Part shown: positions 22,355 to 37,094 of the stretch, in pieces
Numbering within the stretch: position 1 is the stretch's first letter
How the letters are laid out: every line of letters starts with the position of its first letter
Source of the DNA: Geothrix sp. SG200
GTDB lineage: Bacteria; Acidobacteriota; Holophagae; Holophagales; Holophagaceae
NCBI RefSeq assembly: GCF_022808935.1
Contig: NZ_JAKZFR010000001.1
Coordinates: forward strand, 62,001-126,000
Length of the DNA stretch: 64,000 nt
Direction: 5' to 3'
Notes under the pieces: model-generated
Databases searched by the model: none
The model's input: the letters and a program-made list of their open reading frames with translations, nothing else
Told to the model about the DNA's origin: nothing
Translations under genes and position numbers: made by a program

Positions 22355-22641
22355 TAAAGCCCCAGGTAGTCGATGGCCACGTCGCCATGGACGGTCACCT
22401 GGCAGGCGAGGCGCTGGTCGGCCGGCGCGTCCAGGCCCTGGAGGAAGTCCCGCTCCTCCGCGCCCATCTCGCTGCAGTGGCCCAGGCCTTCGGCCACGCG
22501 CACCCGGCAGGTGCCGCAGGAGCCCGTGCGGCAGCCGAAGGTGATGTCCGCCCCGGCGGCGTCGGCGATCGCCTGCAACGGCGTCCCCTCCGGCGCTTCG
22601 ACCAGCAGATCTTCCAGCAGGAAATGGACCTTCACGCTCAT
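22354..22641 (-). CDS. [2Fe-2S] plant-type ferredoxin
   Basis: A 95-residue electron carrier with the ligands C37, C42, C45 (GCRTGSCGTC) and C80 (RLACQ), the usual C-x4-C-x2-C...C spacing. Its ATG overlaps the stop of the MetF fusion (ATGA). metH follows after an inverted-repeat element. Position between a methylene-THF reductase and MetH suggests it delivers electrons either to the reductase or to the reductive reactivation of cob(II)alamin in MetH, a role flavodoxin plays in E. coli. This is inference from context. Confidence 0.92.
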   Translation of the reverse strand: MSVKVHFLLEDLLVEAPEGTPLQAIADAAGADITFGCRTGSCGTCRVRVAEGLGHCSEMGAEERDFLQGLDAPADQRLACQVTVHGDVAIDYLGL

Positions 22642-24497
22642 GCAACCTCCCGTTTCGGCAGGAGCGGCGCGACGAGCTCGACCTGGCCGAAGGGGGCGCT
22701 GAGCTGGAGGCCGCGGATGCGGGGGCGGATGGCCTCGATGGTCTCCTGGGCGATGGCCAGGCCCTCCTTGACCTGGTCGTCGGCGGTGGCCCACCTGGCC
22801 ATGCGGGTGAGCAGGGCGGGCGGCACGAGGACGCCGGGCACCTCGTTGGCCATGAACTCAGCGTTGCGCAGGCTCTTGAAGGGCCAGATGCCGGCGATGA
22901 CGGGCAGGCCGGGGGCCACGCCCTCGGCGAAGTCCAGGAAGCGGAAGAGGCTGTCCGGGTCGAAGACGGGCTGGGTGATGGCCCACTGGGCGCCAGCCTC
23001 GACCTTGTAGCGGAATCGGGTCTTCTCCCGCTCCAGGTCCGGGGCCACGGGATTGGCGCCCACGCCCACGCTGAAGGAGGTGGGCTTGCCGATGCTGGCG
23101 CCGCCGAGGTCGAGGCCCGTGTTGAGGCGCTTGAGCATGTTCACGAGGCCGATGGCGTCCACGTCGAAGACCGCCGTGGCCTGGGGATAAGGCCCCAGCT
23201 TCGGGGGGTCGCCGGTGACGGCCAGGATGTTGCGCAGCCCCAGGCCCGCGGCCCCCAGCAGGTCGCTCTGCATGCCCAGCAGGTTCCGGTCCCGGCAGGC
23301 GTAGTGGAGGATGGTCTCCACGCCCACCTGCTGCTCGATGATCAGGGCCGTGGCCAGGGCGGACATGCGGGCCATGGCCCGGGGGCCGTCCGGCACGTTG
23401 ATGGCGTCCACGCCCAGGGCCCGGCACTGGCGGGTCTTGGCCAGGAGCTTGTCGTACTCCATGCCCTTGGGCGGCACGAGTTCCACGGTGTGGGTGAATT
23501 CGCCCTGGGCGAGCTTGAGGCTGAAGCGGCTCCGGAAGGCGAAGGGGACCTCGGGCTGGGGCTGCTCGTGGGGCTTGAGTTCGTAGCGCCCCCCGGCCTG
23601 GACGAAGGCCCGCTCCTGGCGGAAAGCCCCCCGCATGGCGCGGATGTGGGCGGCCGTCGTGCCGCTGCAGCCTCCCACGGCGCGGGCGCCGCCGGCCAGG
23701 GCCCGGGCCGCGAAGCCGCCCAGGTACTCGGGGCTGGCCCCGTAGATCAGGCGGCCATCCACCATGTGGGGCAGGCCTGGGTTGGGCAGCAGGACGATGG
23801 GCCGGGTGGTGACGCCCTTCAGGTGCTCCAGCAGCCGCAGGTGCGGTGCGGGGCCGTTGCCGCCGATGAGGCCCACCAGGTCCGCGCCCCAGGTGTCGAG
23901 CTGCTTGATGAACCACTCCGGTTCCGCGCCGAAGAGGGCCTGGCCCTCGTCGTTGGTGGTCATCAGGGCGGCGAGGGGCAGGCGGCCGACCTCCTGGACG
24001 GCGAGGATGGCCTGGTGGATCTCGTTGAGATCCTCGAAGCCCTCCAGCACGACCAGGTCGGAACCGGCCCCGACGAGCGCCTCCGCCTGCTCGCGGAAGA
24101 AGGCTCGGGCCTCCTCGAAGGAGGTGGGCCCCCAGGGCTCGATGCGGACGCCCAGGGGGCCGATGCAGCCCGCCACCCAGGCGCGGGCCTGCTGCTGGGC
24201 GATGGCCTGCTTCGCCAGGGCCACGCCCTCGCGGTTGACGGCGTCGAGCTGGCCCTCCAGGCCCCGGGCGGCAAGCTTCAGCCGGTTGGCGCCCCAGGTG
24301 TTGGTGGTGAGCACCTGGGAGCCCGCGGCGAGGAACTCGCCGTGGATGGCCAGCAGCAGGTCCGGCGCCTTGAGGTTGCACTCCTCGAAGCTGCGCTGGA
24401 GCGTGATGCCCCGGTCATGCAGGGCCGAGGCGGTGCTTCCGTCGAAGAGGAAACACTCGCCCTCGTCGAGGGCCTGCCGGAAGGTGGGTTGGGTCAT
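22638..24497 (-). CDS. Homocysteine-methyltransferase-like / methylenetetrahydrofolate reductase fusion (YitJ-like)
   Basis: A 619-residue fusion. Residues 1-300 have the homocysteine S-methyltransferase barrel (FDGSTASALHDRGI, TNTWGANRLKL). Residues about 335-600 are a MetF-type reductase (VELVPPKGMEYDK, NILAVTGDPP, FDPDSLFRFLDF), which makes methyl-THF using reduced flavin. The methyltransferase half is odd. At the site of the first zinc cysteine it reads GLIGGNGP, with Gly212 for Cys. At the GGCC site it reads GGCSGT (C277, S278). Only one of three zinc ligands remains, so that half is probably inactive or altered. It is the first gene of the operon behind a SAM-I aptamer; the ribosome site is weak. 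Confidence 0.9.
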   Translation of the reverse strand: MTQPTFRQALDEGECFLFDGSTASALHDRGITLQRSFEECNLKAPDLLLAIHGEFLAAGSQVLTTNTWGANRLKLAARGLEGQLDAVNREGVALAKQAIAQQQARAWVAGCIGPLGVRIEPWGPTSFEEARAFFREQAEALVGAGSDLVVLEGFEDLNEIHQAILAVQEVGRLPLAALMTTNDEGQALFGAEPEWFIKQLDTWGADLVGLIGGNGPAPHLRLLEHLKGVTTRPIVLLPNPGLPHMVDGRLIYGASPEYLGGFAARALAGGARAVGGCSGTTAAHIRAMRGAFRQERAFVQAGGRYELKPHEQPQPEVPFAFRSRFSLKLAQGEFTHTVELVPPKGMEYDKLLAKTRQCRALGVDAINVPDGPRAMARMSALATALIIEQQVGVETILHYACRDRNLLGMQSDLLGAAGLGLRNILAVTGDPPKLGPYPQATAVFDVDAIGLVNMLKRLNTGLDLGGASIGKPTSFSVGVGANPVAPDLEREKTRFRYKVEAGAQWAITQPVFDPDSLFRFLDFAEGVAPGLPVIAGIWPFKSLRNAEFMANEVPGVLVPPALLTRMARWATADDQVKEGLAIAQETIEAIRPRIRGLQLSAPFGQVELVAPLLPKREVA

Positions 24498-24564: not shown

Positions 24565-24674
24565 GTTCGGTATCTTCCCCCCGGGATACGCCGGGGGCAG
24601 GAATTGGCACCTTGCGTTCGCAGGTTGCCAAGGTTTCACAGGGCCTTTCCCTCCACCTTTCTGGATAGCGCTAT
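24565..24674 (-). promoter_or_regulatory. SAM-I riboswitch aptamer upstream of the MetF fusion
   Basis: The reverse strand carries the same core as the metY leader: CTATCCAGAAAGGTGGAGGG, GGCCCTGTGAAACC, TTGGCAACC and GGTGCCAATTCC, with a GAAC P3 loop instead of GAAA. No T-tailed hairpin is visible in the 67 bases between the aptamer and the ATG at 24497, so control may act on translation or use a different terminator. The bases 24675-24744 show nothing further. Confidence 0.9.
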
Positions 24675-24744: not shown

Positions 24745-26187
24745 TCAAGCCTGGGGCGGCGGGGCGGCCCCTCCCCCGGCCGGATGGGCCGTGAGGCCCT
24801 TGCGCTTCAGGTGGCCCCAGCTGTCCTTGCCTCGAATCCAGTCGAAGGTGCCCCGGAGTCGCCACCACAGTGTCAGCTGCCGGTAGCCGAAGTTCTCGGC
24901 CACGGCCGCGAACAGGAGCAGGGCCCAGGCCTTGAGGCCCTGGTAGCGGTGCCCGCTGATCTCCTGGAGCACCACGGCCACCACGGAGTTCAGCACACCC
25001 AGGAGCAGGGCCACGTAGATGAAGAGGATGGCGAATGGCGTGTTCAGTGAGTGGGTCCAGACAGACCAGGCGAAGAGAAGGTAGCCGCCCACCTCGACGA
25101 TGGGGGCCAGGGCCTCGAAGAAGATGAAATAGGGCATGGAGAAGAAGCCGATGCGCCCGTACTTCGGGTTGAAGCACATCGCCCGGTGCCGCCAGAGGGT
25201 CTCCAGCAGGCCGCGCTGCCAGCGGTTCCGCTGCCGGCCCAGGCCTCGGAAGTCCTCGGGCACCTCGGTCCAGCACACGGGATCGGGGACCAGGGTGATG
25301 TGGTGGGGCCGCTTCCACTCGCGCAGGCAGCGGTGAAGACGAACGACGAGCTCGAAGTCCTCGCCGATGGTGGCGGTCTCGAAGCCCCCCGCGGCCACCA
25401 CCAAGTCCTTCCGGAACACGCCGAAGGCGCCGCTGACGATGAACATGCTGTCCAGGGAGGCCAGGCCCACGCGGGCGAAGAGGAAGGCCCGCAGGTACTC
25501 GACGATCTGGAAGCGGGCTAGCCAGGAACCGGGCAGGAAGATGCCGCGGATGCCCATGGGGGTGACCTTGCAGCCGTTCACGGGCCGCACCACGCCGCCG
25601 GAGGCCACCATGTCGGGACGGTCCATGAAGGGCCGGGCGATGCGGAGGAGGGCATCGTTCTCCAGGAGGCTGTCTCCGTCCATGCAGCAGACCAGCGGGT
25701 AGCGGGCCAGGTTGATGCCGCAGTTCAGGGCGTCCGCCTTGCCACCATTGGCCTTGTCCACCACCACCAGGTTGGGCACGTAGGCGCTCTCGTAGATGCC
25801 GCGCACTTCCTGGGTGGGCAGCAGGTGGCGCACGACCCTCTGGCTGGGCTGGAGCTTGAAGGCCTTGACCAGGCGCTCCAGGGTGGCGTCCGTGCTGCCG
25901 TCGCTCACCACCACCACCTGGAACTCGGGGTAGCGCAGGCTGATGAGGCTGTTGACGCTGGGCACCGCGCCGGCCTCCTCGTTGTAGACCGGGCAGATCA
26001 GCGTGATGGGCTTGTAGTGGCTGGTCTCGAAGGCCGTGTCGAGACGGTCGATCCTCACCGCATCCAGGTAGCTGCGGATGGAGAAGAAGGCCCTCAGGAT
26101 CAGTGACAGGTTCGTCAGCTGCATGGCCAGGTAGTAGAGGAGGATGCCCCACTCGGCGAAGGCCAGGATGATGGCGCGGAAGGTCAC
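24745..26187 (-). CDS. Membrane GT2 processive glycosyltransferase (polysaccharide synthase)
   Basis: A 480-residue protein of the cellulose/poly-GlcNAc synthase type. One N-terminal membrane segment (residues 8-30) precedes the cytoplasmic GT-A domain. The catalytic set is D96 (VVSDGS), D170-x-D172 (MDGDS), E276-D277 (GEDFEL) and Q319-R-x-R-W323 (QRNRW), the D,D,D,QxxRW signature of processive synthases. Several membrane helices follow from about residue 345. It polymerises and exports a sugar from a nucleotide-sugar donor; the sugar is unknown. Its start overlaps the HEAT gene stop (ATGA), and it ends a five-gene operon. No PilZ domain is visible. Confidence 0.9.
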   Translation of the reverse strand: MTFRAIILAFAEWGILLYYLAMQLTNLSLILRAFFSIRSYLDAVRIDRLDTAFETSHYKPITLICPVYNEEAGAVPSVNSLISLRYPEFQVVVVSDGSTDATLERLVKAFKLQPSQRVVRHLLPTQEVRGIYESAYVPNLVVVDKANGGKADALNCGINLARYPLVCCMDGDSLLENDALLRIARPFMDRPDMVASGGVVRPVNGCKVTPMGIRGIFLPGSWLARFQIVEYLRAFLFARVGLASLDSMFIVSGAFGVFRKDLVVAAGGFETATIGEDFELVVRLHRCLREWKRPHHITLVPDPVCWTEVPEDFRGLGRQRNRWQRGLLETLWRHRAMCFNPKYGRIGFFSMPYFIFFEALAPIVEVGGYLLFAWSVWTHSLNTPFAILFIYVALLLGVLNSVVAVVLQEISGHRYQGLKAWALLLFAAVAENFGYRQLTLWWRLRGTFDWIRGKDSWGHLKRKGLTAHPAGGGAAPPPQA

Positions 26188-27335
26188 AGGTGCCCCCGTT
26201 CATCGGCCCACTCGAGCCGCTCCCGGGCCATGTCGCGGGCGAAGCGGTCGGACCCGGGATCCTCCGCCAGCCAGGACAGGGCGGACACGCCGGAGTGGCC
26301 GAGGTCCACGAGGCTCTGGGCGGCGTTGCGGCGGACTTCGTAGACGGGATCGGTCATCAGCGGGAGCAGGTCGGGAACGGCCGAGGGGCCGCCCAGCACG
26401 CCCAGGGCCCGGGCCACCTGGGCGCGGATCTCCCAGGCGGGGCTTGCGGCAAGGCTCAGCACCCGCGGGTAGACCTCCGGGTCCGCCAGGATGATGAGGG
26501 CCTTGAGGACGGAGGCCCGGAGGTCCACGCTCGGCACGTCCAGCAGCCACAGAAGGCGCGGGAGGGACTCGCGGTGGCGGTGGGAGCCCACCAGCAGGGC
26601 GTAGAGGATCCAGGGCTCCGGGTTCTGGTTCGGCGACTCCAGGTTCTCCTTCATCCAGGGCAGCAGGTCCGGCCCGAATCCTTCGAGCACCCGGAGGAGC
26701 CGCTCCCGCTGGTAGAGCTCTTCGCGCATGACCCAGGCCAGCACCGGCGCGGCGAACCTCAGGCTCCGGCTGTGGGTCAGGGCCTGGGCCGCCGTGTGGG
26801 CCACGAAGGGGACCGGATCATCAAGCAGGGGCAGGACCTGCTCCAGGTAGCCCTCCATGCGGATGCCGGGCTTCCACCGCCAGGGGCGCTCCGTCACCGG
26901 GGGCGGCGCGTGCTCCGCCGGTTCGTCCAGGCGGAAGACGGAGATTTCCTTGGCCGCCTGGGCCCGGACGTTGGGATCGCGGTCCTTCAGCCGCTGGGGC
27001 AGGGACGCGTGGAGGCCCATGCTCAGGTAGAGCTCCCGGAGCAGCTCGAATTCCTGCCCGGCGATGGTGGACTGGTAGCGGGCGAGGAAGTCCCGGAACA
27101 GCCACCGGTCGGCCCAGGGGACCGGCCCGAAGGATTCGTGCTCGAAGCCCCTCTTGAACAGGTAATCCGTGAGCTGGGTCTCCCAGGCCTGGTAGCAGGC
27201 GATGCGATGCCGATTCTGGCGGTCCTTGCGGTACTGCAGGACGGTGCCCACCAGCACCAGCCCGCCGGTCAGTGCCAGGAGGCCGAATGTCGCCCAGCGG
27301 AGGAGGGGCAGCAGCAGGTCGTGGGGAAAGGGCAT
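26184..27335 (-). CDS. Membrane-anchored HEAT-repeat protein
   Basis: A 383-residue protein. A single membrane helix lies at residues about 10-32 (ATFGLLALTGGLVLVGTVLQY). A 100-residue linker domain is followed by HEAT/armadillo-like helical repeats (PLLDDPVPFVAHTAAQALTHS; LIILADPEVYPRVLSLAA; ALGVLGGPSAVPDLLPLMTDPVYEVRRNAAQSLVDLG). Such repeats bind proteins. In this operon it lies between a receiver-domain protein and the GT2 synthase, so it may connect the signal input to the synthase. Spacing is 12 bases after the receiver gene and a four-base overlap with the GT2 gene. Confidence 0.85.
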   Translation of the reverse strand: MPFPHDLLLPLLRWATFGLLALTGGLVLVGTVLQYRKDRQNRHRIACYQAWETQLTDYLFKRGFEHESFGPVPWADRWLFRDFLARYQSTIAGQEFELLRELYLSMGLHASLPQRLKDRDPNVRAQAAKEISVFRLDEPAEHAPPPVTERPWRWKPGIRMEGYLEQVLPLLDDPVPFVAHTAAQALTHSRSLRFAAPVLAWVMREELYQRERLLRVLEGFGPDLLPWMKENLESPNQNPEPWILYALLVGSHRHRESLPRLLWLLDVPSVDLRASVLKALIILADPEVYPRVLSLAASPAWEIRAQVARALGVLGGPSAVPDLLPLMTDPVYEVRRNAAQSLVDLGHSGVSALSWLAEDPGSDRFARDMARERLEWADERGHL

Positions 27336-27347
27336 GGACAGGATGGC

Positions 27348-27752
27348 TCACCCCACGCGGTGGGAGCGTTCGTAGAGCCGCCACAGCCGCTCCACCATCA
27401 CCTGGACCGAGATCGGCTTCGCCATGTAGTCATCCGCGCCGGCCGCCAGGCAGCGCACCATGTCCTGCTCGCTGTGGTTGCTGGAGAGGAGCAGGATGGG
27501 GATGCGGCCCTTGGGCGGCGCGAGGTCCCGCACCTCCTGCACCAGCCGGAACCCGTTCATGGCAGGCATCATGAGGTCGGTGGTGATCATGTCGACCTGG
27601 TCGCGGTGGAGGATCTCGAGAGCGTCCATGCCGTTGGCGGCCACGAGCACCTTGAGCCCCTCCATCTCCAGGCGGACCTGGATGATCTTCGCGGTCGCAG
27701 GGTCGTCTTCGACCACCAGGATCGTCGTTTGGGCTGGCCAGCGTCGGGTCAT
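27348..27752 (-). CDS. Single-domain response regulator
   Basis: A protein of 134 residues that is a receiver domain only. The acidic pocket is D16/D17 (VVEDDPAT), the phospho-acceptor D59 (TTDLMMP), the conserved Ser/Thr in LLLSSN and the Lys near 112 (MAKPIS). There is no output domain, so it must act by protein contact. It lies inside the polysaccharide operon, 20 bases after the TPR/beta-barrel gene. The ribosome site before the ATG at 27752 is poor; an in-frame ATG at 27785, overlapping the upstream gene, is an alternative. Confidence 0.88.
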   Translation of the reverse strand: MTRRWPAQTTILVVEDDPATAKIIQVRLEMEGLKVLVAANGMDALEILHRDQVDMITTDLMMPAMNGFRLVQEVRDLAPPKGRIPILLLSSNHSEQDMVRCLAAGADDYMAKPISVQVMVERLWRLYERSHRVG

Positions 27753-27772
27753 CGGAAAAAGTCTACCCCTTT

Positions 27773-29470
27773 CTACCAGAACCATCGATTCCCTCGGATC
27801 CGGATCCCGAACCGGAGGGTGTGGTCGCGGTAGCTGGTGGGGTCCGTGGGATCGGCGATGGGCAGGCCCGCCACGCTCTGGCTCCAGGAGGCGAAGAGGG
27901 TGGCGGCGGAGCCCCCGGGCGTCCAGGTTCCCGCCAAGGCGTAGCCCCAGGTGAACTGGCTGGCGGTCTGGTTCACCACCTGGCTTCCGCCCCACCCGTC
28001 GAGGGCCACCTCCCAGCGCTCCTCGCGCCGCGCCGAGACACCGGCGGTGGCGCCGTAGTAGCGGTAGCGCTCGGGGTTGAAGAACCCGATGCGGAGGCTC
28101 TGGTCCTGGTCGATGAACCGGGTGGCGAGCCCCGCGCGCCACTCCCCCCACTCGATGGGGAACCGATGCCCCGCCTCTGCCCGGACGCCCGTCCGGGCCG
28201 CGCCGTGGGAGAGGAAGGCCCGCTCCAGGGACAGGGCCGCATGGTCAAGGGTCTGGTTGAAGACCCACGTCCCGCCCAACCCCCAGGTCCGGGTGAACGT
28301 GCGGAGGTCCAGGGCCCGGGGGGTGGCCAGGTTCGGCGCGAAGGTGTGGGACAGCACCAGGTTCAGGCCCGGCGCCGCGCGCCAACCCAGGGCCAGGCTG
28401 TGGAAGCCCGCAGCGTCCCCGCCCACGTCATCCACCCGGCCCACCTGGGCCGAGGCCGTGACCCGCGAGCCCAGGGGATGGCTGAGGCCCAGCGACCATT
28501 CTTGCGGCTTGCGCTCCGCCTGGCCGCTCTGGTCCAGCAGGTCGAAGCTCGCGCCGGCCCGGAGGCTCCCGTCGAAGAACGGCACCGCCGCGTCCACCCG
28601 CCGGGCCTGGGCGCGCAGACCCTCGTTGGAGTCCGTGCGGGTCTGGGAGAGCTCGATCCAGGGGCCCTGGGCGTCGGCCAGGCCGCGGAGGCGGGCCTGG
28701 GCGTCCTCGCGCGTGTCCGGCTGGTCCGCCAGGGCCTCGGCGCGAGTCCGCGCCCGGCGGAGACGGCCCATTCGCTGGTCGATCTGCGCCCGGATGAGCT
28801 CCGCTTCGGAGCTCTGGACATCCTCGGATCCGAGGCCGCCCAGACGCCGCTCGGCCGCTTCGGGATCGCCGGCCCAGAGGTCCAGCTGGGCCAGCCCCAG
28901 GATCGCCTGGCGGTTGCCCGGCGTCCGGGCGAGGGCCTCCTGGTAGGCCCGGCGGGCCTGCCCGTGCCGCCCGCGCCAGCCGAGCACGCGGCCCCGGAGC
29001 AGGTGGAAGTCCGTGTCGGCGGGATGGGCCTGCAGCCAGGCGTCCGCCATGGCCAGGCTCTGGTCCATGCGCCCGTCCCAGCTCAGGTAGGTGGCCGTGT
29101 CCAGGGTGGCCTGGCGGTCGCCCTTGGCCACGTGGGGCCGGAGGATCTCCACGGCCTCGCCGAAGCGTCCGGACCAGGCGGTGACCCGGGCCAGCACCGG
29201 CTCGGATTCCGCCGCCAGCTCCGGATGGACCTCCCGGTGCCGCTTCAGGTCGCGGATGGCCTCGTCGAACCGCTTCATCCAGCTGAAGGTCCGGGCTCGC
29301 TCGAGAAGGGCGTCGGGCTGGTCCTTCCAGAGCTCCAGCATTCGGGTGTAGACCGCCACGGCCTCGGGGAACCGCTTCTGCGAGCGCAGCTCCCGGGCCT
29401 GCTTCAGGAGCGCGGCGGCATCCGGAGCCGGGGCGGGCTCCTGCATGGCGGGCGGTGCGGGATGGATCAT
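27773..29470 (-). CDS. TPR plus outer-membrane beta-barrel protein (YaiO/PgaA-like)
   Basis: A 565-residue protein. Residues 20-290 are TPR-like helical repeats (FPEAVAVYTRMLELWKDQPDALLERART; HGQARRAYQEALARTPGNRQAILGLAQLDLWAGD). Residues 300-565 alternate in beta-strand fashion and end in an aromatic residue (GNRWFW), as outer-membrane barrels do. This order fits export proteins such as PgaA, BcsC or YaiO. The ATG at 29470 overlaps the upstream stop (ATGA). No Sec signal peptide is visible at the N-terminus (MIHPAPPAMQEPAPAP) or in the frame just upstream, which is unexpected for a barrel. Confidence 0.82.
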   Translation of the reverse strand: MIHPAPPAMQEPAPAPDAAALLKQARELRSQKRFPEAVAVYTRMLELWKDQPDALLERARTFSWMKRFDEAIRDLKRHREVHPELAAESEPVLARVTAWSGRFGEAVEILRPHVAKGDRQATLDTATYLSWDGRMDQSLAMADAWLQAHPADTDFHLLRGRVLGWRGRHGQARRAYQEALARTPGNRQAILGLAQLDLWAGDPEAAERRLGGLGSEDVQSSEAELIRAQIDQRMGRLRRARTRAEALADQPDTREDAQARLRGLADAQGPWIELSQTRTDSNEGLRAQARRVDAAVPFFDGSLRAGASFDLLDQSGQAERKPQEWSLGLSHPLGSRVTASAQVGRVDDVGGDAAGFHSLALGWRAAPGLNLVLSHTFAPNLATPRALDLRTFTRTWGLGGTWVFNQTLDHAALSLERAFLSHGAARTGVRAEAGHRFPIEWGEWRAGLATRFIDQDQSLRIGFFNPERYRYYGATAGVSARREERWEVALDGWGGSQVVNQTASQFTWGYALAGTWTPGGSAATLFASWSQSVAGLPIADPTDPTSYRDHTLRFGIRIRGNRWFW

Positions 29471-31788
29471 CGGGGCAACCTCGGTTCGTCGGGGGTGGCG
29501 GCCAGGGCTTTCTGATAGATCGAGAAGGACAGCTTGCGGAAGCGATGAAAGGTCGGCCGGTTCCAGGCCCGCCAGGTGTAGAGCGGGGGCACGGGGATGG
29601 CGCCGCGGACGGCGGCGGGGAGGGTGAGGCGGAGGGTGCTGGGACCTTCTCCGAGCGGTTTGTCGGCATCCACGATCGCCAACACGAATCTGAACCCTGG
29701 GGTTTTGGAAGATTCCAGGGGGCCGCCGGTTTTCCACCCGGGATCGTCCAGCACCATCCGCTGACTCGGATCCGTGACCTGGATCAGCGTCCAGGGGATG
29801 CGCGCCTCGATGAACCCCCGGCCGTCGGGGGCCCGGCCCGCCTGCCATTCGGCGCGGGAGTCGAAGGCGGGATCGGCGCGGTCCTGGGTTCCCTGGCGGA
29901 GCCAGCCGATCTCCGTGGTGTGGCCCGGGAACCGCGTGCCATCGCGGCCGATTCGGGGGTGGTTGCTCTTGGCCGTGGGCATGAGGAAGCGGCCCGCCTC
30001 GTTGGCCACGCTCTGATAACGGTGATGGGGCAGGGGCCGGTAGTCGGGGACGGCGTAGGGGGCATCCACGAACACCCCCGTGTGGTCCGGCCCCTGGAAG
30101 AGGACCGCGAACTCCAGGCCGGCCTCGCTGCGCGGGCTGGCCACCCAGGGAAGCCGGTGGTCGCCCCGGCGGGTGTCCACGGTGTCGAGGCCCACGAGGA
30201 TCGCTTCCTTCGTGAAGTCCGCGGGACGCGGGAGGAACAGGCCGAGGTGGAGCCAGCCCTCGTCCGCCACGGCCTTCAGGGAGAGCCCGTCGGCCTCGAG
30301 GTATGCGGGAATCCGGGCCCAGTCGTCCGCCTTGCCGTCGATCAGGATGGATGGCCCCTTGGCGCCGGGCCGGTAGGCGATGAGGCCGTAGTTCTCCTCG
30401 GCGTCCATGGCGTTGTACCAGAGCGGCTTCCGCTCGAAGGGGCGCTCGAAGGGCAGGGTGAGCCAGTTCTTCTTGAACCACTCGTCGATCCAGGCGAAGA
30501 GCACGCCCCCGGCGCAGCCCGCGTCGTAGATGTCCTGCTGGAGCCGGGCATCCTGCTCGCCCTGCTCGCGCTCGCCTTGGCCGCCGTGGGTCAGGCCCTG
30601 GGGCTGCCAGTGGGCGACGATGCGGGAGGAGGGCACGCCGAATTCCGCGATGAGCACCGGATGGCGGGCGTGATGCCTCACCAGGTCGGCGAGGTAGCCC
30701 GAGTAATGGCTGGGGCCCAGGTGATCCCGGGCCTGGGCGTAGCCAGGATCCAGGTTCATGAAGTCGGGGTAGTACGGGTAGGCGTGGTAGCTGGCGAAGA
30801 GCCCGGCCCTGAGCTGTGACGTGCCCTCGAACTTCTCCATGTCCAGGCTGGCGGCGTCCTCGTCGTCGGGCTCCGGGTTCGGGGCCTCCGCCGCCATGCC
30901 GAGCTTCTGCCGCAGGGCGCGTTCCTCCTGCTCCGTGGATTCCGTGATGTGGAAGAGAGGGTCCAGGGTGGGCCAGTTGGTGAAGGCGATGGGCCGCTGG
31001 GCCTGGAACCGGTCCCATTCCTCGGCGAGGAAGTAATCCAGGCTCTGGGCGAGGAACCGCTCCATGGCGTGGCCCTCCCGCACCGTGACGAAACGGCCGG
31101 TCCAGGTCGAGGTCCGCGAGTGCTGGCGATTGAAGGCCACCACGCTCGAAGACTCCCATTCGCGGCCCAGGATGACGGCCAGGGTCCAGGGGCTGACGTC
31201 CGCGCCAAAGGTGCCGCTGGCGTGGCCCGGGCGGGCGGGGATGCGGGCCTGGCCGTGGAGCACCCCGGCCACGTCCCGCATCTCCCGGTGCCAGGCCGCG
31301 AGCCAGGCGGGATCCAGGAAGTCGTGGCGGGGGGGCAGCTCGGTCCAGACGCCGTGGATGAGCCGCATGGGCTTCCGGGCGCCGAGGTTGTAGGCGCGCA
31401 GGGCCTCGTAGAACGCGGGCGGATGGATGGTGTAGACGCGGATGGTGTTGAAGCCCGCCTCCGCCATCTCCCGGATCCACCCGTCGTAGGTGGCCCGGTC
31501 CGGGAACTCGCTGGGGTGCCGGCCGGGAATGGCTGCGCCCAGGTTCACGCCCTTGACATAGAAGGGATGCCATCCGCCGGCGCCATCCGCCACCTCCAAC
31601 CGGCGGTCGTGGGCGCGTGCCGGGATCAGGGGCTGGGAGGGGCGGGTGACCGGATGCGGAGGATTGGCCTGAAGGCGGGAGGGAGGCGCCGGGGCCGCCG
31701 ACAGGGGGGCTTCACCCCCCGGGAGACCCAGAGAAAGGGCGAGGCCAATCATCTTCAGGGCTGGTAAAGGCCGAATCATCTGCTTCAT
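29467..31788 (-). CDS. Secreted glycoside-hydrolase-like TIM-barrel protein
   Basis: A 773-residue protein with an N-terminal signal segment (MIGLALSLGLPGGEAPLSAA). Residues 75-460 look like a clan GH-A barrel (GVNLGAAIPGRHP; AGFNTIRVYTIHPPAFY). Candidate acid/base is E210 (VILGREWES) and nucleophile E382 (VLIAEFGVPSS), the usual two Glu of this clan. The C-terminal 300 residues resemble a sugar-binding beta-sandwich (ILIDGKADDWARIPAYLEAD). It is the first gene of the operon. By analogy with PgaB, BcsZ or PelA it may trim or modify the exported polymer. The family number cannot be fixed by eye. Confidence 0.8.
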   Translation of the reverse strand: MKQMIRPLPALKMIGLALSLGLPGGEAPLSAAPAPPSRLQANPPHPVTRPSQPLIPARAHDRRLEVADGAGGWHPFYVKGVNLGAAIPGRHPSEFPDRATYDGWIREMAEAGFNTIRVYTIHPPAFYEALRAYNLGARKPMRLIHGVWTELPPRHDFLDPAWLAAWHREMRDVAGVLHGQARIPARPGHASGTFGADVSPWTLAVILGREWESSSVVAFNRQHSRTSTWTGRFVTVREGHAMERFLAQSLDYFLAEEWDRFQAQRPIAFTNWPTLDPLFHITESTEQEERALRQKLGMAAEAPNPEPDDEDAASLDMEKFEGTSQLRAGLFASYHAYPYYPDFMNLDPGYAQARDHLGPSHYSGYLADLVRHHARHPVLIAEFGVPSSRIVAHWQPQGLTHGGQGEREQGEQDARLQQDIYDAGCAGGVLFAWIDEWFKKNWLTLPFERPFERKPLWYNAMDAEENYGLIAYRPGAKGPSILIDGKADDWARIPAYLEADGLSLKAVADEGWLHLGLFLPRPADFTKEAILVGLDTVDTRRGDHRLPWVASPRSEAGLEFAVLFQGPDHTGVFVDAPYAVPDYRPLPHHRYQSVANEAGRFLMPTAKSNHPRIGRDGTRFPGHTTEIGWLRQGTQDRADPAFDSRAEWQAGRAPDGRGFIEARIPWTLIQVTDPSQRMVLDDPGWKTGGPLESSKTPGFRFVLAIVDADKPLGEGPSTLRLTLPAAVRGAIPVPPLYTWRAWNRPTFHRFRKLSFSIYQKALAATPDEPRLPR

Positions 31789-31867: not shown

Positions 31868-32830
31868 CTACCAGGCCAGGAGGCGGTCCAGGGCGGATCG
31901 CAGGGCTTTCGTCCCGGGCAGGTGGGCGGCCTCCAGGGGGGGGCTGGCGGGGATCGGCGTGTCCGCGCCCCCCACCCGCAGCACCGGGGCGTCCAGCCAG
32001 CCGAAGCAGGTCTCGCCGATGCGGGCGGCCAGCTCGGCGCCGGGGCCGTAGGTGAGGCTGGCTTCGGTGAGCACCAGGACGCGATGGGTCCGCTTCGCGA
32101 GCGCGGTGATGGCCTCGTCATCCAGGGGCCAGAGGGTGCGCAGGTCCAGCACGGCCACGTCCAGCTCCGCCACGGCTTCCAGCGCCACGTGCTGGGCGGC
32201 GCCGTAGGTGATCACGCAGGCCTTCGAGCCGTCTTTCCGCAGGGCGGCTTCACCGAGCCGGGCCGTGGGAGCCTCGTCCCATTCGTCCTTGAGGCGGCGA
32301 TAGAGGTGCTTGTGCTCGAAGAACAGCACGGGATCGGGGTCGTCGATGGCCGCGCGGAGCAGAGCGTAGGCATCGCGCACGGTGCCCGGCGCCACCACCT
32401 TCAGGCCGGGGCTGCCGAGGAAGTGGCCCTCGGGGTTCTGGCTGTGGAAGGGCCCGCCGCCATTGCCGGCGCCGGAGGGTCCCCGGAACACGGCGGGCAC
32501 GGTGGCGCCCCAGCGCCAGTGGGCCTTGGCCGCGAAGTTCACCATGAGGTCGGACGCCAGCAGGGCGAAGTCCATGAACTGGAACTCCGCCACGGGCCGC
32601 TGACCCATCAGGGCCGCGCCGATGGCGGCGCCGGCGATGGCCTGCTCGGAGATGGGCGTGTCGATCACCCGGTCCGCGCCGAAGCGCTCCAGCAGGCCCT
32701 CCGTGGCCCGGAAGGCGCCGCCGTAGGTGCCGATGTCCTCGCCCAGGCAGCAGACGCGGGGATCGGCCTCCATGGCGTCGAAGAGGGCCTGGCGGATGGC
32801 GTCGACGTAGGTGCCCGAGAAGGCGGTCAT
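31868..32830 (-). CDS. 2-oxoacid dehydrogenase E1 component, beta subunit
   Basis: A 320-residue transketolase-like protein of the E1-beta family. Conserved segments are CLGEDIGTYGGAFRATEGL, DTPISEQAIAGAAIGAA, FMDFALLASDLMVNFAAK and VLDLRTLWPLDDEAI. With an alpha subunit it forms the thiamine-diphosphate decarboxylase of pyruvate or branched-chain 2-oxoacid dehydrogenase complexes. No alpha subunit or E2 is next to it. Its ATG overlaps the stop of the upstream cysteine/cystathionine synthase gene, so the two are co-translated. Confidence 0.93.
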   Translation of the reverse strand: MTAFSGTYVDAIRQALFDAMEADPRVCCLGEDIGTYGGAFRATEGLLERFGADRVIDTPISEQAIAGAAIGAALMGQRPVAEFQFMDFALLASDLMVNFAAKAHWRWGATVPAVFRGPSGAGNGGGPFHSQNPEGHFLGSPGLKVVAPGTVRDAYALLRAAIDDPDPVLFFEHKHLYRRLKDEWDEAPTARLGEAALRKDGSKACVITYGAAQHVALEAVAELDVAVLDLRTLWPLDDEAITALAKRTHRVLVLTEASLTYGPGAELAARIGETCFGWLDAPVLRVGGADTPIPASPPLEAAHLPGTKALRSALDRLLAW

Positions 32831-35198: not shown

Positions 35199-37094
35199 TC
35201 AGTGGCAGCGCCTGCAGGATGGCGTGTCGCGAACCGGGATCCCCTTCGGCGCCGGCGTCGAAGCCGGGCGGGGCTTGGGGGCGGGCCGTGTCATGGGGCA
35301 GGCTCGGGCCGGGAGATCGGCAACCTGGATGGGGAAGGGGCGCAGGTGATCTTTCAGGAAGTAGGCGGGCACGGCCCGGAGCGCCCGCTCCGCCTCCGCC
35401 TTGGAGGCGTAGGCCCCCAGGAAGAGCTGGTTGAGGCTCCTCCCGTCTCGCAACTGGAGGGGCGCGATGAAGAGGTCGGGCAGGCCGGGGTAAGCCCAGG
35501 CCGCATTCTTGAGGGTGACGGTCAGCCGGGCCGCTTCGAGCCGAAGGGTCCATTGGCGCGCCGGGAGGGTCGCGAGGTAGGCCCGGCTCAGGTCCAGGGC
35601 CCGGGAGATGTCGCCCCTCCGGAGCGCCGCGAGCCGATCAGCCGCGCTGGAATCCGAAGGATCAACCTTCCTGGGGGTGGCGGTCTCCTGGGCGCGGGGC
35701 ACGGAAACGGGGCCGGCACCCTGAGCAGAGGCCATCCCGCCAGGCGAAGCCGCAGCCACCATGGGGCGGGCTGGTACCGCGGGAGAATCCGGGCCCTGAG
35801 ATGGCGCCTGGGACTCGGGCCCTGGCAGGGTTGGAGCGGGGAAGGCCGAGGCGCGGGGCGCGGAAACGGGAGCGGCGCCCTGAGCAGAGGCTGTCTCGTC
35901 AGGCGAAGCCGCAGCCACCATGGGGCGGGCTGGTACCGCGGGAGAAGCCGAGCCCCGAGATGGCGCCTGGGACGCAGGCCCTGGCAGGGCCGGAGCGCCG
36001 GAGGCCGAGGCGCGGGGCATGGTAACGGGGGCGGTGCCCTGAGCAGAGGCCATCCCGCCAGGCGAAGCCGCAGCCACCATGGGGCGGGCTGGTACCGCGG
36101 GAGAAGCTGGGCCCTGGTATGGCGCCTGGGACGCGGGCCCTGGCAGGGTCGGAGCGGCTGAGGCCGAGGCGCGGGGCGCGGAAACGGGGGCGGCGCCCTG
36201 AGCAGAGGCCGTCCCGCCAGCCGAAGCCACGGCCACCATGGGGCGGGCTGATTTCGCGGGAGAAACTGGGCCCTGAGATGGCGCCTGGGACTCGGGCCCT
36301 GGCAGGGTTGGAGCGGGGAAGGCCGGGGCGCGGGGCACGGAACCGGGGGCCGCGTCCGGAGCAGAGGCCGTCCCGCCAGGCGAAGCCGCAGTCACCATGG
36401 GGCGGGCTGGTACCGCGGGAGAAGCCGGACCCTGAGATGGCGCCTGGGAGACAGACGCCGGCAGGGCCGGAGCGGTGGAGAGCGGGGCCCGGGATGCGGC
36501 AGGAGGGGATGGGGGGGCGGCGGAGCTGGCACCCCAGGCGTATCCCAGAAGGAGGGAGGCCTGGATCTCCTGGAGCGATCTGGAGGGGAGGCGGAAGATG
36601 GCTCGCCCTTCCATCCCCCAGAACAGCGCGGTCCCGGAATGCTGGACGAACCCCAGGGAAGCGTGGACTGTCGTGGTGCGGGTGGTGGTCTGGGTGTAGG
36701 TGAGGGCGTCGGTCTCCGAGGATCGGAGGGTTCCCAGTCCCAGTCCCAGGTAGGGCCACATCGCCATGGCCGGGTCCTCGGACAAGGTCGTCAGGAAGCT
36801 GGCCGAGAGGGCCTGGTATCGGGGCTTCGCGCCTGGAAGGGTCGAGCTCCTGGTTTCGTACTGGTAGCCGTCGAGGGAGATGCCGTGACGCCCGCCCTTG
36901 AAGACAAGGGTCCCCTGGAGGCCCAGAAGGATGGGGGATCCTGCATTTTCCGGGGGATCGAAGAAGAGCGATCCGGCCCTGATACCCAGCCACTTGAACC
37001 CGGGGTCACCGGCTTCGGGGCCAGGGCTCGCGGCGAGGCTAATGCCAAGGCCCATGGCCAGGATCGGCTGTAGGCGCATCTGCCTGCCCATCAT
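35199..37094 (-). CDS. Beta-barrel / Pro-Ala repeat / SPOR-like envelope protein
   Basis: A 631-residue protein in three parts. Residues 1-22 are a signal peptide. Residues 30-190 look like a small outer-membrane-type beta domain (FKWLGIRAGSLFFD; WPYLGLGLGTLRSSE; SLLLGYAWGAS). Residues 216-470 are four full and one partial copies of a 53-residue Pro/Ala/Ser repeat (SQAPSQGPASPAVPARPMV...). Residues about 545-595 resemble a SPOR domain (NQLFLGAYASKAEAERALRAVPAYFL), which binds denuded septal peptidoglycan. A GGAGG site precedes tandem ATGs at 37094 and 37091. The repeat linker may span the periplasm between outer membrane and cell wall. The combination is unusual. Confidence 0.78.
   Translation of the reverse strand: MMGRQMRLQPILAMGLGISLAASPGPEAGDPGFKWLGIRAGSLFFDPPENAGSPILLGLQGTLVFKGGRHGISLDGYQYETRSSTLPGAKPRYQALSASFLTTLSEDPAMAMWPYLGLGLGTLRSSETDALTYTQTTTRTTTVHASLGFVQHSGTALFWGMEGRAIFRLPSRSLQEIQASLLLGYAWGASSAAPPSPPAASRAPLSTAPALPASVSQAPSQGPASPAVPARPMVTAASPGGTASAPDAAPGSVPRAPAFPAPTLPGPESQAPSQGPVSPAKSARPMVAVASAGGTASAQGAAPVSAPRASASAAPTLPGPASQAPYQGPASPAVPARPMVAAASPGGMASAQGTAPVTMPRASASGAPALPGPASQAPSRGSASPAVPARPMVAAASPDETASAQGAAPVSAPRASAFPAPTLPGPESQAPSQGPDSPAVPARPMVAAASPGGMASAQGAGPVSVPRAQETATPRKVDPSDSSAADRLAALRRGDISRALDLSRAYLATLPARQWTLRLEAARLTVTLKNAAWAYPGLPDLFIAPLQLRDGRSLNQLFLGAYASKAEAERALRAVPAYFLKDHLRPFPIQVADLPARACPMTRPAPKPRPASTPAPKGIPVRDTPSCRRCH
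35685..36449 (-). repeat. 159-bp in-frame tandem repeat
   Basis: Four complete copies and one copy of about 129 bases of a 159-bp (53-codon) unit inside the preceding gene. Copies differ by scattered substitutions but keep SQAP...ARPMV...ASA...LPGP. The period is a multiple of three, so copy-number change would keep the frame. Confidence 0.9.

Follow-up and report, generated by a model that had tools for sequence, protein, structure and literature searches.

A mobile gene cassette of Geothrix pairing a HEAT-repeat protein with a glycosyltransferase, probably for synthase-dependent polysaccharide secretion

Gene content of the locus

The window analysed here is a 64,000-nucleotide stretch of Geothrix sp. 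SG200 (positions 62001-126000 of contig 1 of a 10-contig, 3.36-Mb assembly), with Holophagaceae (Acidobacteriota; L021, L022) as nearest named relatives. Between 24745 and 31788 it carries five minus-strand open reading frames (ORFs), at the coordinates given in the initial annotation, encoding a glycoside hydrolase (GH), a tetratricopeptide repeat (TPR) protein, a receiver, a HEAT-repeat protein and a family 2 glycosyltransferase (GT2). These five genes are a mobile functional unit gained and lost as a cassette. The cassette is real and widely conserved, and most likely serves synthase-dependent polysaccharide secretion of a known kind with an unusual conserved partner, the HEAT protein. From the 5' end of the operon, the genes are:

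29467..31788, minus strand: secreted hydrolase of clan GH-A, 773 aa, with a C-terminal beta domain; predicted acid/base E210 and nucleophile E382
27773..29470, minus strand: TPR protein with a likely C-terminal beta-barrel, 565 aa, predicted export porin; BcsC TPR match 5e-7
27348..27752, minus strand: stand-alone receiver, 134 aa; complete phosphorylation site D16, D17, D59, S90, K112
26184..27335, minus strand: HEAT-repeat protein with a membrane anchor, 383 aa; repeats predicted to be cytoplasmic
24745..26187, minus strand: processive-type GT2 (predicted), 480 aa; D, DxD, ED, QxxRW and transmembrane (TM) segments

The genes are as tightly packed as first described, with overlaps or gaps of at most 20 bases. 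Stop and start of the hydrolase and TPR genes overlap by four bases (ATGA, 29467-29470), gaps of 20 and 12 bases separate the receiver gene from the TPR and HEAT genes, respectively, and the GT2 gene starts at a GTG overlapping the HEAT stop (GTGA, four bases). Third-position GC is 90-94% in each of the five frames.

All motifs of the processive synthase predicted in the initial annotation were found in the GT2, namely D95, DGD (169-171), ED (275-276) and QRNRW (318-322), and an alignment of nine bacterial and archaeal sequences shows no variation in them. By these motifs and the flanking TM segments the protein is a predicted processive-type synthase, and its best NCBIfam similarity is to PgaC/IcaA.

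The HEAT protein has the proposed membrane anchor, a single N-terminal TM helix followed by HEAT repeats in a confident model (predicted local distance difference test score, pLDDT, 92.8) which resembles general protein-docking scaffolds, e.g., alphaRep and PP2A-A. An N-terminal hydrophobic segment occurs in all 76 aligned HEAT proteins, and in 73 of them the charge pattern gives a predicted topology with cytoplasmic repeats. The neighbouring protein is a lone receiver, as previously called, matching Response_reg (E=1e-27) and being phosphorylatable as judged from its full site. The residues of this site are kept in 52-58 of 60 aligned receivers of related loci (phospho-Asp in 56, Lys in 58); 59 of these 60 proteins match Response_reg, 14 also match GGDEF and 11 Hpt.

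The TPR protein had been read as a TPR/outer-membrane barrel. Its TPRs are clear in Pfam, while the barrel is a likely reading of the C-terminal half, whose last residues are GNRWFW.

The hydrolase and its relatives

The window hydrolase belongs to a family that has no Pfam or NCBIfam model, and scans of both collections returned no family match. In an AlphaFold2 model (mean pLDDT 82.7) the protein folds into a GH-A barrel followed by a C-terminal beta domain, in agreement with the GH-A-like assignment made earlier. The best structural match is the GH157 endo-beta-1,3-glucanase LaGH157 (Z 29-33 over ~311 residues, root mean square deviation 2.4 A), followed by GH2 glucuronidases (Z ~27). The fold is thus like that of GH157, yet identity to LaGH157 is only 16% and a sequence-profile search of PDB found no GH chain, GH157 included. 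Of 18 aligned rows, 17 retain the predicted catalytic residue E210 (GREWE) and all 18 retain E382 (AEFG), and together with the modelled barrel these residues place the enzyme in clan GH-A.

Across genomes, the family occurs in ~21 loci, and three of 16 proteins scanned are fused to TPRs. Bacillota members often carry an extra N-terminal domain of ~380 residues without a Pfam match (L018, L055, L085), and the same domain is free-standing downstream of GT2 or of a YaiO-type barrel elsewhere (Neomarinimicrobiota, Myxococcota). Three short genes taken for hydrolases (L023:11931-13118, L029:11660-12865 and L048:10392-11534) encode this separate domain and were rejected as GH. A second family copy in Paenibacillus (L018:2776-5874, L099:4821-7868) lacks the acid/base Glu, with DPDL or TPDL in place of GxEW, and is perhaps a binding pseudo-enzyme.

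Linkage and distribution

Relatives of the GT2 were sought among plasmids with the single protein and among 84,980 species genomes with the alignment of nine rows. Loci were recovered from many bacterial phyla, including Gemmatimonadota, Bacillota, Actinomycetota, Bacteroidota, Deinococcota, Nitrospirota, Pseudomonadota, Neomarinimicrobiota, Myxococcota and Cloacimonadota, and from haloarchaea, one methanomicrobial archaeon and one Thermoplasmatota archaeon. In the GT2 tree the archaeal rows nest among bacteria, which suggests transfer; the tree does not place the root of the module. One copy at 44% identity lies on a contig titled Klebsiella pneumoniae metagenome-assembled genome (L061) and is likely mis-binned.

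Automatic assignment places a HEAT gene immediately upstream of GT2 in 96 of 103 loci, and correction of four ORF-overlap artefacts raises the number to 100. Thirteen of the 103 loci are from the same genus, and 12 of those were fetched by HEAT itself; the fair figure is therefore 87 of the 90 loci fetched by GT2 alone. The three remaining exceptions are two Nitrospira loci and one cut contig. The pair is kept at GT2 identities of only 28-38%, as in Devosia, Planococcus, Bacteroides finegoldii and Legionella adelaidensis. Distance matrices of GT2 and HEAT correlate at r=0.78 (86 loci; permutation maximum 0.13), those of GT2 and receiver at r=0.40 (68 loci). A receiver gene occurs up to four genes upstream of GT2 in 64 of 92 loci (genus loci excluded).

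The two Nitrospira loci (L065, L066) are the only clear breaks of adjacency. HEAT and GT2 are there on the same strand, parted by an inverted block with a large YaiO.

Weaker GT2 matches served as a negative control. Among 119 Acidobacteriota genomes, HEAT is directly upstream in 24 of 24 clade GT2s (E below 1e-150) versus 3 of 33 weaker GT2 rows (two loci), and all but one of 27 strong HEAT matches adjoin a clade GT2. Within the genus of the window, 20 of 37 genomes carry both genes and the other 17 carry neither. The hydrolase is found in 16 of the 37, of which 15 also hold GT2.

The cassette site is bounded by the following features, all outside the cassette; the two genes were characterised from their own sequence:

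31868..32830, minus strand: 2-oxoacid dehydrogenase beta-subunit-like gene, on the 5' side
24567..24671, minus strand: S-adenosylmethionine (SAM) riboswitch (RF00162), 85.1 bits against a gathering threshold of 44.4, at the 3' boundary
22638..24497, minus strand: homocysteine S-methyltransferase/methylenetetrahydrofolate reductase (MTHFR)-like gene, on the 3' side

The flanking genes lie 7.3-8.9 kb apart in eleven cluster carriers and 19-295 bp apart in nine non-carriers, and in two more non-carriers other DNA, of 1.8 and 6.5 kb, occupies the site. The riboswitch of the downstream gene is kept at the empty site. The cassette is therefore gained or lost whole, with the ends that the initial annotation gave. 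In the window, the riboswitch precedes the homocysteine methyltransferase/MTHFR-like gene and a metH-like gene.

Conserved core and exchangeable genes

The conserved core of the system is receiver-HEAT-GT2, with HEAT-GT2 as the tightest pair, and the hydrolase, porin and polymer-modifying genes are exchangeable, as follows from the linkage counts and the barrel distribution. At the same site in a genome of the same genus (G036) and one of the same family (G160), the HEAT-GT2 core is kept, with the receiver seen in G036, and a small secreted protein and a sulfatase-fold (lipoteichoic acid (LTA)-synthase-like) membrane enzyme take the place of the hydrolase and the window-type TPR-barrel. The replacement set of G160 adds a YaiO barrel (E=8e-62). 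The hydrolase-TPR pair of G002 and G032 is oriented away from receiver-HEAT-GT2. It had been suggested that conserved co-occurrence of all five genes across genomes would mark a single system; homologues do co-occur, and this holds for the core, while in many loci the hydrolase and TPR-porin are absent or have been exchanged.

The small secreted protein of the cassette types lacking the hydrolase has 314-326 aa and no Pfam match (L119:1111-2052, L122:10339-11316). It is possibly a functional substitute of the hydrolase.

Of 77 diderm loci, 35 have a YaiO-type barrel; the 28 monoderm or archaeal loci have none. Envelope type was taken from record titles, and untitled records were counted as diderm. 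Among relatives, TIGR04390 is matched by 26 of 33 TPR-barrel proteins scanned.

These distributions bear on the possibility that the GT2 adds one or a few sugars to a lipid or envelope component under regulation by HEAT and receiver, with the hydrolase belonging to unrelated catabolism. A number of GT2 families that share this type of core are non-processive, and the solved structures matched by the window GT2 include non-processive enzymes. The QxxRW motif, the TM segments around the catalytic domain and the similarity to PgaC/IcaA point instead to a polymerising enzyme, as do the barrels adjoining GT2 in diderms only and the TPR-fused hydrolase domains in the same loci. We regard the transfer of a few sugars as improbable.

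Hints as to the sugar are weak and varied. They include a dehydrogenase for sugar nucleotides and epimerases in Legionella, GlmS and a nucleotidyltransferase in Halosolutus, and the GH157-like hydrolase in the window.

Comparison with known polysaccharide systems

The combination of synthase, hydrolase and TPR-porin was originally likened to Pga, Bcs and Pel systems without their known accessory genes, and this description agrees with our scans, in which the markers of these systems were unmatched or scored far below cut-off.

Pga/Ica, which makes poly-beta-1,6-N-acetylglucosamine, is the closest named GT2 family by score and likewise combines a QxxRW GT2, a TPR and barrel exporter and a periplasmic carbohydrate-active enzyme in one operon. 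The window GT2 reaches only 132 bits against a PgaC/IcaA (TIGR03937) cut-off of 422.3, however, and the TPR-porin 35.6 bits against a PgaA (TIGR03939) cut-off of 366.65; neither the PgaB deacetylase/GH153 nor PgaD was matched in the five genes by Pfam or NCBIfam. Where the window has HEAT and a receiver, Pga has the c-di-GMP-binding PgaC/PgaD (PMC8461298).

Bcs resembles the window in its GT2 synthase, its TPR-barrel exporter and its secreted hydrolase (the BcsZ role), and the sulfatase-fold enzyme of some relatives recalls BcsG. Membership in Bcs was rejected, with 30.5 bits to the CelA model against 699.1 and no match to PilZ, BcsB or GH8 in the operon. The window GT2 has 480 aa versus ~800 in Bcs, and its hydrolase is of the GH-A rather than the GH8 type.

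Pel shares with the window the logic of a periplasmic hydrolase, a TPR/porin and a dedicated cytoplasmic control protein. Its synthase is the GT4 enzyme PelF, whereas the window has GT2, HEAT and receiver. The five genes hold a GT2 and gave no match to the Pel families looked for (GT4 PelF, PelD, PelG).

The E. coli yaiO-yaiX-yaiP-yaiS locus (L105) also has a YaiO barrel beside a GT2. YaiP aligns at 28% over 224 residues, no HEAT gene is listed in the MG1655 yaiO-yaiP-yaiS region and the window barrel gives no YaiO match; the cassette was rejected as a member of this system. That the cassette is a divergent member of Pga, Bcs or the YaiO/YaiP locus would fit its best family similarities (PgaC/IcaA for the GT2, PgaA/BcsC for the TPRs) and the frequent YaiO barrels of its relatives, but given the scores above and an operon without a match to deacetylase, PgaD, PilZ or BcsB, this is very improbable, and none of the best matches assigns the genes to a named system.

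In the well-studied synthase-dependent systems for matrix polymers, Bcs, Alg, Pel and Pga, c-di-GMP receptors act as the gate, with PelD among the proteins binding the nucleotide (PMC8461298). No c-di-GMP receptor was seen in the window operon. The initial annotation had proposed that receiver and HEAT stand where PilZ/c-di-GMP control is usual, which agrees with the window operon; it does not extend to the whole family, as GGDEF domains accompany the adjacent receiver in 14 of the 60 proteins; the receiver of the window itself has none.

Searches of open full texts, a body of literature without subscription papers and preprints, turned up no description of a receiver-HEAT-GT2 module. Two candidate descriptions were rejected: the EmbRS cluster of Rubrivivax belongs to the Wzx/Wzy type, and HEAT comes up in the lipocone paper solely for beta-catenin.

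Proposed mechanism and its main alternative

We consider it probable that the cassette encodes a synthase-dependent surface-polysaccharide system in which the phosphorylatable receiver acts on the synthase via a cytoplasmic HEAT adaptor. This proposal builds on observed gene anatomy and active-site residues, on HEAT-GT2 linkage across phyla, on gain and loss of the cassette and on the restriction of YaiO to diderms. The steps that we infer from there concern the formation and identity of the polymer, its export path, the direction of the hydrolase effect and the contact between receiver, HEAT and GT2. The GT2 would polymerise a sugar nucleotide at the inner membrane and thread the chain across it, the TPR-barrel protein would carry the chain through the periplasm and outer membrane, and the secreted GH-A enzyme may trim or clear periplasmic chains. 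The HEAT protein, anchored by its one N-terminal helix, would be seated on the synthase with its repeats in the cytoplasm. Docking of the phosphorylated receiver on HEAT could then let a phosphorelay turn synthesis on or off post-translationally, a role held elsewhere by the c-di-GMP receptors PilZ, PgaD, PelD and Alg44. This regulatory step is suggested by the position of lone receivers next to a docking scaffold, predicted to be cytoplasmic, whose gene is linked to that of the synthase.

Several observations weigh against this proposal. The window TPR-barrel has no recognisable signal peptide, nor do those of all genus relatives read, in which its start at the ATGA overlap with the hydrolase gene is kept, and an outer-membrane barrel is for this reason likely rather than proven; most YaiO proteins of other loci, unlike the window protein, have an evident signal peptide. 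The window protein also gives no match to YaiO (PF19413/TIGR04390). Five of the 20 GT2-bearing genomes of the genus lack the hydrolase, and shared species history may explain part of the GT2-HEAT distance correlation. Finally, 28 of the 92 loci outside the genus have no receiver near GT2, so other inputs may exist beside the receiver.

The absence of a receiver in these 28 loci also gives rise to the main alternative, that HEAT is an obligate structural subunit of the same polysaccharide machine, needed like PgaD or BcsB for stability or channel assembly, and that the receiver acts elsewhere, e.g., on a diguanylate cyclase or kinase. HEAT is nearly universal where the receiver is not, its distance correlation with GT2 is far above that of the receiver, and in several loci YaiO parts the receiver gene from HEAT. 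On the other hand, a lone receiver without an output domain directly precedes HEAT in many phyla, archaea included, and HEAT arrays are protein-docking scaffolds, as the alphaRep and PP2A-A matches illustrate. A purely structural HEAT is thus the less likely explanation, although it has a better claim than either of the other two alternatives. A Thermus locus (L041) has a TPR-fused histidine kinase beside the receiver.

More tentatively, at somewhat short of an even chance, the modules would form an undescribed class of polysaccharide secretion by synthases, present in no fewer than twelve bacterial phyla and in several lineages of archaea. In this class a two-component phosphorelay would gate the synthase directly, by way of the membrane-anchored HEAT adaptor, replacing or supplementing c-di-GMP. 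If so, Gram-negative and Gram-positive bacteria and archaea would have in common a widespread system with a HEAT partner and a phosphorylatable receiver neighbour, in which kinases could switch matrix synthesis through protein contact. It would also give a function to many proteins annotated merely as "HEAT repeat domain-containing" or "YaiO family". As the core consists of three small genes, the idea is directly testable.

Other observations in the window

At 35199-37094 (minus strand), the window contains a 631-aa ORF in which two ordered-looking ends flank a long repeat rich in Pro, Ala and Ser (APSQGPASPAVPARPMVAAASPGG...).

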